The position numbers were made by a program, and so were the translations under genes. The notes below the pieces were generated by a model. It was not told the origin of the DNA and did not search any database. It worked only from the letters and a program-made list of their open reading frames with translations. 36,898 nt of DNA, from contig JAOPGA020001659.1 in the NCBI GenBank assembly GCA_026419775.2, forward strand, positions 1 through 36,898, given 5' to 3'. The DNA comes from Acrasis kona (Eukaryota > Heterolobosea > Eutetramitea > Acrasida > Acrasidae). Below are positions 11,255 through 11,639 of this stretch, one piece after another (the stretch's first letter is position 1; the number at the start of each line of letters is the position of its first letter).

Positions 11255-11357
11255 TTCGATATAGTCCAGTGGTTTTCGTCTACCATGTAGGATGAGAGAC
11301 TCTCACTCTCTAGACCCGGGTTCGATAAAATAGCATACGGTAGTCCCGGTATCGAAG
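11255..11357 (+). tRNA. tRNA-Glu (anticodon CTC) with introns in the D-loop and T-loop
   Basis: Removing 14 nt at 11275-11288 and 17 nt at 11327-11343 leaves a perfect 72-nt tRNA. Acceptor stem TTCGATA (11255-11261) pairs with TATCGAA (11350-11356), discriminator G 11357. D-stem GTCC 11264-11267 pairs with GGAT 11290-11293. Anticodon stem AGAGA 11295-11299 pairs with TCTCT 11307-11311, around the seven-base loop CTCTCAC, giving anticodon CTC (Glu, codon GAG). T-stem CCGGG 11316-11320 pairs with CCCGG 11345-11349, around TTCGATT. The A box TAGTCCAGTGG is intact; the B box GGTTCGAT is split by the second insertion. A T5 Pol III terminator follows. Exact intron ends are uncertain by 1-2 nt. TGGT at 11270-11273 can pair with ACCA at 11282-11285, a relaxed bulge-helix-bulge. 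Confidence 0.85.
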
Positions 11358-11360
11358 ATG

Positions 11361-11365
11361 TTTTT
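11361..11365 (+). terminator. RNA polymerase III T-run terminator of the tRNA gene
   Basis: Five T residues begin 3 nt after the discriminator base of the tRNA-Glu gene, the usual position and length for a Pol III terminator. Confidence 0.75.
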
Positions 11366-11639
11366 GTTATTGTCATGCTTTCTTTTATGTGACATGTTAA
11401 TTTAATATCTTTCATCAGCAAAGAACAATCCGTTGTATTTTTCAAACTAAATATATTATTATTGTAAACAAGAGTATGAACGCATTATTGACCAGATGGC
11501 CACTTTCAACTTCATTATTGTGAAGTAAAGCAAGCAGCATTTTATTGTATATATTTCTGGTCTATTACAACGTTATTTTAGCAATTTGCACATCAGGGTT
11601 AGTTACATCCCTGGACAAATGAAAATCGATTATGAAGGT

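Follow-up and report, generated by a model that had tools for sequence, protein, structure and literature searches.

Can a nuclear tRNA gene that is interrupted in both its D-loop and its T-loop, with the anticodon loop left entire, still be a functional gene, and by which machinery would the two insertions be removed? The question is raised by positions 11255–11357 of the window, the window being the whole stretch of Acrasis kona DNA that was analysed, a contig of 36,898 nt. The answer developed below, on the letters of this gene and its relatives in the genome, is that the locus is very probably a functional nuclear tRNA-Glu(CTC) gene with two ectopic introns that would be cut by the tRNA splicing endonuclease.

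The interrupted tRNA-Glu(CTC) gene

The tRNA-Glu(CTC) gene at 11255–11357 is split by an insert of 14 nt in the D-loop and one of 17 nt in the T-loop. When both inserts are taken out, ARAGORN calls a perfect 72-nt tRNA-Glu(ctc), just as the sequence-only reading had proposed; in the unspliced window, no tRNA is reported by ARAGORN and none by Rfam (E up to 1). Exon 1 (11255–11274, on the forward strand as are all features given here) consists of the 5′ strand of the acceptor stem, positions 8–9, the 5′ strand of the D-stem, a stem with one G–T wobble, and the D-loop up to the first junction, and does not differ among the 11 copies whose 5′ end is intact. It is followed by the D-loop insert (11275–11288), a putative intron with a junction equivalent to 20/21 and a register that is set by sister copies. 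Exon 2 (11289–11326) contributes the remainder of D-loop and D-stem, the anticodon arm (CTC), the variable loop, the 5′ strand of the T-stem and TTCGAT of the T-loop. Its anticodon loop, CTCTCAC as previously read, is uninterrupted at 7 nt, which excludes a canonical 37/38 intron in this gene. The T-loop insert (11327–11343), a second putative intron, is located at 59/60 and, as had been noticed before and is confirmed here, splits the Pol III B box, with GGTTCGAT left together upstream of the insert in the T-loop-interrupted Glu(CTC) gene. Exon 3 (11344–11357) supplies the end of the T-loop, the 3′ strands of T-stem and acceptor stem and the discriminator G.

The T5 run that had been recorded as a terminator is present at 11361–11365 and is, by its letters, a likely Pol III terminator. 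A run of four or more T is found within 26 nt of the 3′ end in 23 of 23 Glu(CTC)-type genes with enough sequence and also follows 17 of 17 Glu(TTC)-type ends; indeed, every 3′ end that could be judged has one. Further downstream of the gene, a 26-nt stretch at window positions 11391–11416 recurs downstream of another Glu(CTC) copy (L069). The surroundings, between window positions 1255 and 19005, harbour genes for a macro-domain protein, a cofilin/coactosin-like protein, a WDR75-like protein, a DJ-1/PfpI protein, a cyclic-nucleotide phosphodiesterase, an RWP-RK protein and a Cluap1 protein.

Copies of the gene in the genome

The genome searched comprises 37.35 Mb in 1021 contigs, with the window as contig C866, and copies of tRNA-Glu(CTC) were located with two queries, the spliced sequence and the 150-nt locus. 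The CCT7 protein encoded there falls into one cluster with A. kona at 100% identity, and its further matches include Heterolobosea such as Willaertia and Naegleria. Copy counts given throughout are lower bounds, with the best 63 of 2352, 40 of 44 (spliced Glu(CTC) query) and 40 of 41 (Lys query) candidates scored. At least 15 dispersed loci on different contigs carry both the D-loop and the T-loop insert. Eleven of the 15 are complete, with the 5′ end kept, and possess identical exons, combined with D-loop inserts in four versions and T-loop inserts that are different in all 11; a middle exon with one to four changes did not occur among the loci retrieved. Such recurrence of both inserts, with 11 identical exon sets next to 11 different T-loop inserts, shows that the match is not due to chance, and a fortuitous cloverleaf was rejected on these grounds.

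The remaining four copies (on C834, C812, C770 and C351) are interrupted by a repeat in the 5′ portion of the D-arm and are likely dead. The repeat, of about 1.0–1.1 kb, is inserted at the same D-arm site in all four (L073, L069, L075 and L074, respectively), has AGTCCA on both sides in the two fully covered copies (L069 on C812 and L074 on C351) and resembles at its right end an antisense tRNA-like B box (GAGTTCGATTCT); possibly, it is a tRNA-targeting mobile element. Another repeat, CAGGGTAACTATACCTTATC, lies near several Glu(CTC) copies (L065, L069, L070 and L074).

A sister Glu gene (TTCGATATCGTCC...) is present in at least nine copies, all with a D-loop insert, of 25–28 nt in the eight copies measured, and with an uninterrupted T-loop; the anticodon is CTC in eight of the nine and CTT in one (L081). 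The latter is one of two genes which combine a tRNA-Glu body with a Lys anticodon one base away from Glu, L055 (C987:4372–4439, TTT) and L081 (C541:52025–52121, CTT). An intact Glu(CTC) gene elsewhere had been named by the sequence-only reading as a finding that would speak against introns. Beside the 24 interrupted copies, one with changed anticodon, no such gene was found among the best 40 of the 44 candidates of the spliced query, where an intact copy would rank first.

Interrupted genes in other tRNA families

Whether other tRNAs carry such inserts, a check proposed along with the original observation, is answered by at least six further families. For tRNA-Glu(TTC), nine intact copies and eight with an insert of 11–12 nt (8/17 interrupted) were found, with L055 as one further intact Glu(TTC)-type copy with a TTT anticodon. 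tRNA-Gly(TCC) has nine intact copies and 12 with an insert of 11–14 nt (12/21; four read by letter), while tRNA-Ser(GCT) has one intact copy and ten with an insert of 10–17 nt (10/11 full-length genes; six read by letter), the Ser(GCT) search also returning one fragment without an insert and a few divergent matches over part of the gene. tRNA-Arg(TCT) is represented by two intact copies and three with a 10-nt insert (3/5; one interrupted copy read by letter), and among its relatives nine are, by coordinates only, also 10 nt longer and one is 4 nt longer. All 20 copies of tRNA-Ile(AAT) exceed the query length by 9 nt (three read by letter), and all 12 copies of tRNA-Lys(TTT) have a 10-nt insert, which in the eight read by letter is located before GG18–19 in seven and after GG in one; two of these seven share their flanks and were entered once in the statistics. 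Of 28 further Lys-like genes, considered by coordinates only, 25 span 10–14 nt extra and three cannot be judged. One Lys(TTT) gene (L109) and one Ile(AAT) gene (L111) share the same 10-nt D-loop insert and D-arm, as if introns had been exchanged between isotypes.

The assembly thus contains at least 123 interrupted tRNA genes (15+9+8+12+10+20+12+25+3+9), for 52 of which, plus one variant, the letters were read. Exons are collinear in these 52 genes, which excludes permuted tRNA genes, and the inserts lie, in the numbering used here, at 15/16, 17/18 and 20/20a to 20/21 in the D-loop and at 59/60 in the T-loop, all outside 37/38. Met, Asp, Ser(TGA), Trp, His and Asn are among the tRNAs uninterrupted in the loci read; a generic tRNA-Tyr query of the A. 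kona genome gave no match.

The coexistence of interrupted and intact copies permits a direct comparison of predicted and existing sequences. For Ser(GCT), Gly(TCC), Glu(TTC) and Arg(TCT), an interrupted copy minus its insert equals the intact sister, letter for letter over the D-arm, and the spliced T-loop of Glu(CTC) equals the T-loop of the sister Glu(CTC) gene. The Ser(GCT) product was predicted before any intact copy was known and then matched the intact gene with 100% identity over 80 nt. For Glu(CTC), Lys and Ile, families in which no intact copy was found, the D-loop product was assumed. In Glu(TTC), the flanks of intact and interrupted copies are unrelated, and gain and loss of introns are not separable there for this reason.

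Could the inserts nevertheless reflect decay, with pseudogenes left at these loci and intact genes elsewhere doing the work? Published surveys class short insertions in the D- or T-arm of eukaryotic tRNA genes in this way when synonymous intact copies exist (PMC4090602), as they do here for Ser, Gly, Glu(TTC) and Arg. Exon changes that break stems or conserved bases are present in five genes, namely the four Glu(CTC) copies disrupted by the repeat and the sister copy L082, in which bases of the T-arm are altered. Such changes are absent in the 11 complete Glu(CTC) copies, where the identical exons are undecayed; moreover, the inserts hold one pairing register (see below), and no uninterrupted copy of Glu(CTC), Ile(AAT) or Lys(TTT) was found among the scored candidates, though the codons GAG, AAA/AAG and ATT/ATC are common in A. 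kona. Pseudogenes are in consequence a very unlikely explanation, and the initial preference for introns over decay is supported by the uninterrupted sisters that are equal to the predicted spliced products and by the identity of the exons.

Predicted pairing at the insert junctions

All families read by letter can be described by one pairing rule: a tetranucleotide of the 5′ exon and a tetranucleotide of the insert form a helix, and 2 nt separate each of the two strands from the cut on its 3′ side. The rule corresponds to a 4-bp helix with a 3-nt bulge, the published bulge–helix–bulge (BHB) geometry, with cuts set to yield the correct product; derived from the same data, it is not an independent prediction. 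In the window gene, GTGG (11269–11272) is the 5′ strand of the predicted 4-bp D-loop splicing helix and would pair in the fixed register with CCAT (11283–11286) on the insert strand, after which GT and the cut follow. The sequence-only reading had placed this helix one base off, as TGGT/ACCA; with the inserts at 11275–11288 and 11327–11343, GUGG/CCAU fits better. The UGGU/ACCA register was dropped once sister copies were read, as two of them (L035 and L038) differ in the last base of the D-loop insert, which allows only GUGG/CCAU. In the T-loop, TTCG (11321–11324) is predicted to pair with CGGT (11338–11341), followed by AG and the cut. The weakness ascribed to this second pairing holds for the window copy, with three of four pairs, but does not extend to the family, since 13 of 15 copies reach four of four.

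From the 67 inserts read in the 52 genes, 56 distinct ones were used in the pairing statistics. In the fixed register, 43 of them form four of four pairs and 13 form three, with none lower, a result that was not reached in any of 3000 shuffles (on average 4.3 inserts with four pairs, at maximum 23). When only those families are considered that include an uninterrupted sister, 26 of 34 inserts form four pairs and 8 of 34 three; with Ile left out, the figures are 42 of 53 and 11 of 53. Among 72 strand shifts tested, zero shift was best (3.71 pairs), the neighbouring diagonal register gave 3.42 and all others gave at most 2.91, values computed before two inserts counted twice were merged (58 vs 56). 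The exon strands vary across families (GUGG, GGUG, AGUG, GCUC, UCAG, GUCG and UUCG) and the insert strands follow, with a mean of 3.73 pairs between an insert and its own exon versus 1.99 with foreign exons; 2 of 82 foreign combinations nevertheless equal the own ones (4.00). As exons are invariant inside a family, changes occur on the insert side only, and two-sided covariation is found only between families.

An Ile insert of 9 nt was rejected, with at most two helix pairs in three of three copies; set to 10 nt, a length assumed from the Lys D-loop, it forms three to four helix pairs in a register that is thereby a fitted one. No clean outer helix is left in Lys-a and Arg, where the helix draws on D-stem bases or their neighbours; in Lys-a, the D-stem strand doubles as the exon strand of the helix, which makes D-stem and splicing helix mutually exclusive. 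By RNAfold, the helix is formed in the D-arm of the window gene and in the T-arms of the sisters L031 and L037, with three pairs in L036, while the splicing helix is absent from the fold of the window's own T-arm. With this pairing, the insert junctions are predicted to adopt BHB or relaxed BHB structures.

The same data bear on the idea that no splicing takes place and that mature tRNAs retain enlarged D- and T-loops. D-loop length varies among tRNAs generally, and Ile and Lys-b have small inserts of 10 nt. A T-loop of 24 nt, on the other hand, would abolish the conserved contact between T-loop and D-loop; one and the same tRNA is encoded by interrupted and by uninterrupted copies that are otherwise identical, and retention leaves the fixed pairing register unexplained, which renders this idea highly improbable. 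Concern about an assembly or sequencing artefact might be raised by the origin of the published A. kona assembly from 454 and Illumina reads and by the 37.35 Mb analysed versus a published estimate of 44.02 Mb (PMC11589745), and the two assemblies may differ. Inserts of 10–28 nt that differ in sequence yet occupy identical loops and keep one register throughout dozens of contigs make the probability of such an artefact negligible.

Splicing machinery and proposed mechanism

Two PF01974 domains are encoded in the genome, L105, which is closest to Sen34 and resembles archaeal EndA too, and L106, which is closest to Sen2; the Tyr, His and Lys residues which we take to be catalytic align. RtcB is represented by one full gene and one in pieces. 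In the mechanism proposed for the Glu(CTC) gene, Pol III would transcribe the unspliced precursor, the Sen endonuclease would cut the BHB of either loop, and the exons would be joined by a ligase, for which RtcB is a candidate, to a 72-nt tRNA that reads GAG. The same scheme would apply to the other interrupted tRNA families of A. kona.

Self-splicing group I introns are excluded by size, as inserts of only 10–28 nt are too short for self-splicing and the core of a group I ribozyme alone comprises hundreds of bases. Alternatively, the inserts could be introns whose removal depends on another enzyme than Sen or another motif than the BHB, in keeping with the 13 of 56 helices that are only 3 bp long, with the lack of an outer helix in some and with the many ectopic introns of the Guillardia nucleomorph that have no defined BHB (PMC3978253). 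This is unlikely in view of register, bulge size and cut position, which match BHB rules in ten insert groups, and of the presence of Sen2 and Sen34 genes. Cleavage by Sen, our preferred reading, can be extended from the single locus to the whole genome: there is, in our estimation, an even chance that A. kona possesses a generalist, archaea-like tRNA splicing system, in which decoding of GAG, AAA and AUU/AUC would depend on D- and T-loop splicing and introns would still be gained, lost or exchanged among otherwise identical copies.

If this is true, one genome offers natural pairs of genes with and without intron. The coexisting intact and interrupted twins make directly testable how introns are gained and lost, what effect a split B box has on Pol III and by which rule the eukaryotic Sen recognizes its substrates. 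If other Heterolobosea share the trait, a feature of a deep branch of the eukaryotes would have been overlooked, as tRNA finders do not search eukaryotes for such introns. tRNAscan-SE 2.0 seeks non-canonical introns with the archaeal model only (PMC8450103), a blind spot of tRNA gene finders which the A. kona inserts expose.

Comparison with known ectopic tRNA introns

Reports of eukaryotic ectopic tRNA introns have so far come mainly from a single red alga and from nucleomorphs, with Sen thought to measure to 37/38; a non-photosynthetic Discoba amoeba with at least 123 interrupted tRNA genes would show that introns in the loops are not an algal oddity. According to a review, ectopic tRNA introns are rare among eukaryotes, and an insertion in a single copy probably marks a pseudogene (PMC4090602). 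In the open-access literature searched, nothing was found on tRNA introns in Acrasis or on intron-containing or D-loop-interrupted tRNA genes in Heterolobosea, and work on Naegleria and on protist non-canonical introns yielded, by title and abstract, no such introns in Heterolobosea. The main text of the A. kona genome paper mentions tRNA only in the form of tRNA synthetases (PMC11589745), and for Naegleria gruberi 924 tRNA-like loci are reported (PMC2888827).

Canonical eukaryotic introns are presumably cut by the same endonuclease, with its recognition thought to be tied to 37/38 (PMC3978253), and it is in their position that the A. kona inserts differ. Non-canonical BHB introns of archaea are described as having a 4-bp helix and cuts in 3-nt bulges, at positions which include 20/21 and 59/60 and with several introns per gene (PMC4090602, PMC8450103). 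A. kona resembles them in helix and bulge geometry, in both these positions and in the occurrence of several introns per gene, but belongs to another domain of life and has short inserts in multicopy gene families. The nucleomorph of Guillardia theta has, like A. kona, short inserts in D- and T-arms, there of 3–24 nt and with excision confirmed by RT-PCR in the original work according to a review (PMC4090602). This nucleomorph is, however, a relic algal nucleus in which many introns are without a defined BHB (PMC3978253), whereas 56 of 56 A. kona inserts pair in one register.

The red alga C. merolae is reported to have introns in more than 62% of its tRNA genes, with several introns in at least 12 genes (PMC9602550), at junctions that include 20/21, 14/15 and 59/60 (PMC3978253). 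Common to both organisms are the location in a nuclear genome, introns in D- and T-arm of one gene and junctions of BHB type; permuted genes and 37/38 introns, both present in C. merolae, did not occur among the A. kona genes read. The Sen15 subunit is missing from C. merolae (PMC4090602). The kind of intron is thus known from red algae, nucleomorphs and archaea. What appear to be new are the lineage, Heterolobosea, and the mix of intact and interrupted twins, as the introns of A. kona, in contrast to those of C. merolae, are found in multicopy families scattered over the genome, where an uninterrupted twin of identical mature sequence is often present as well.
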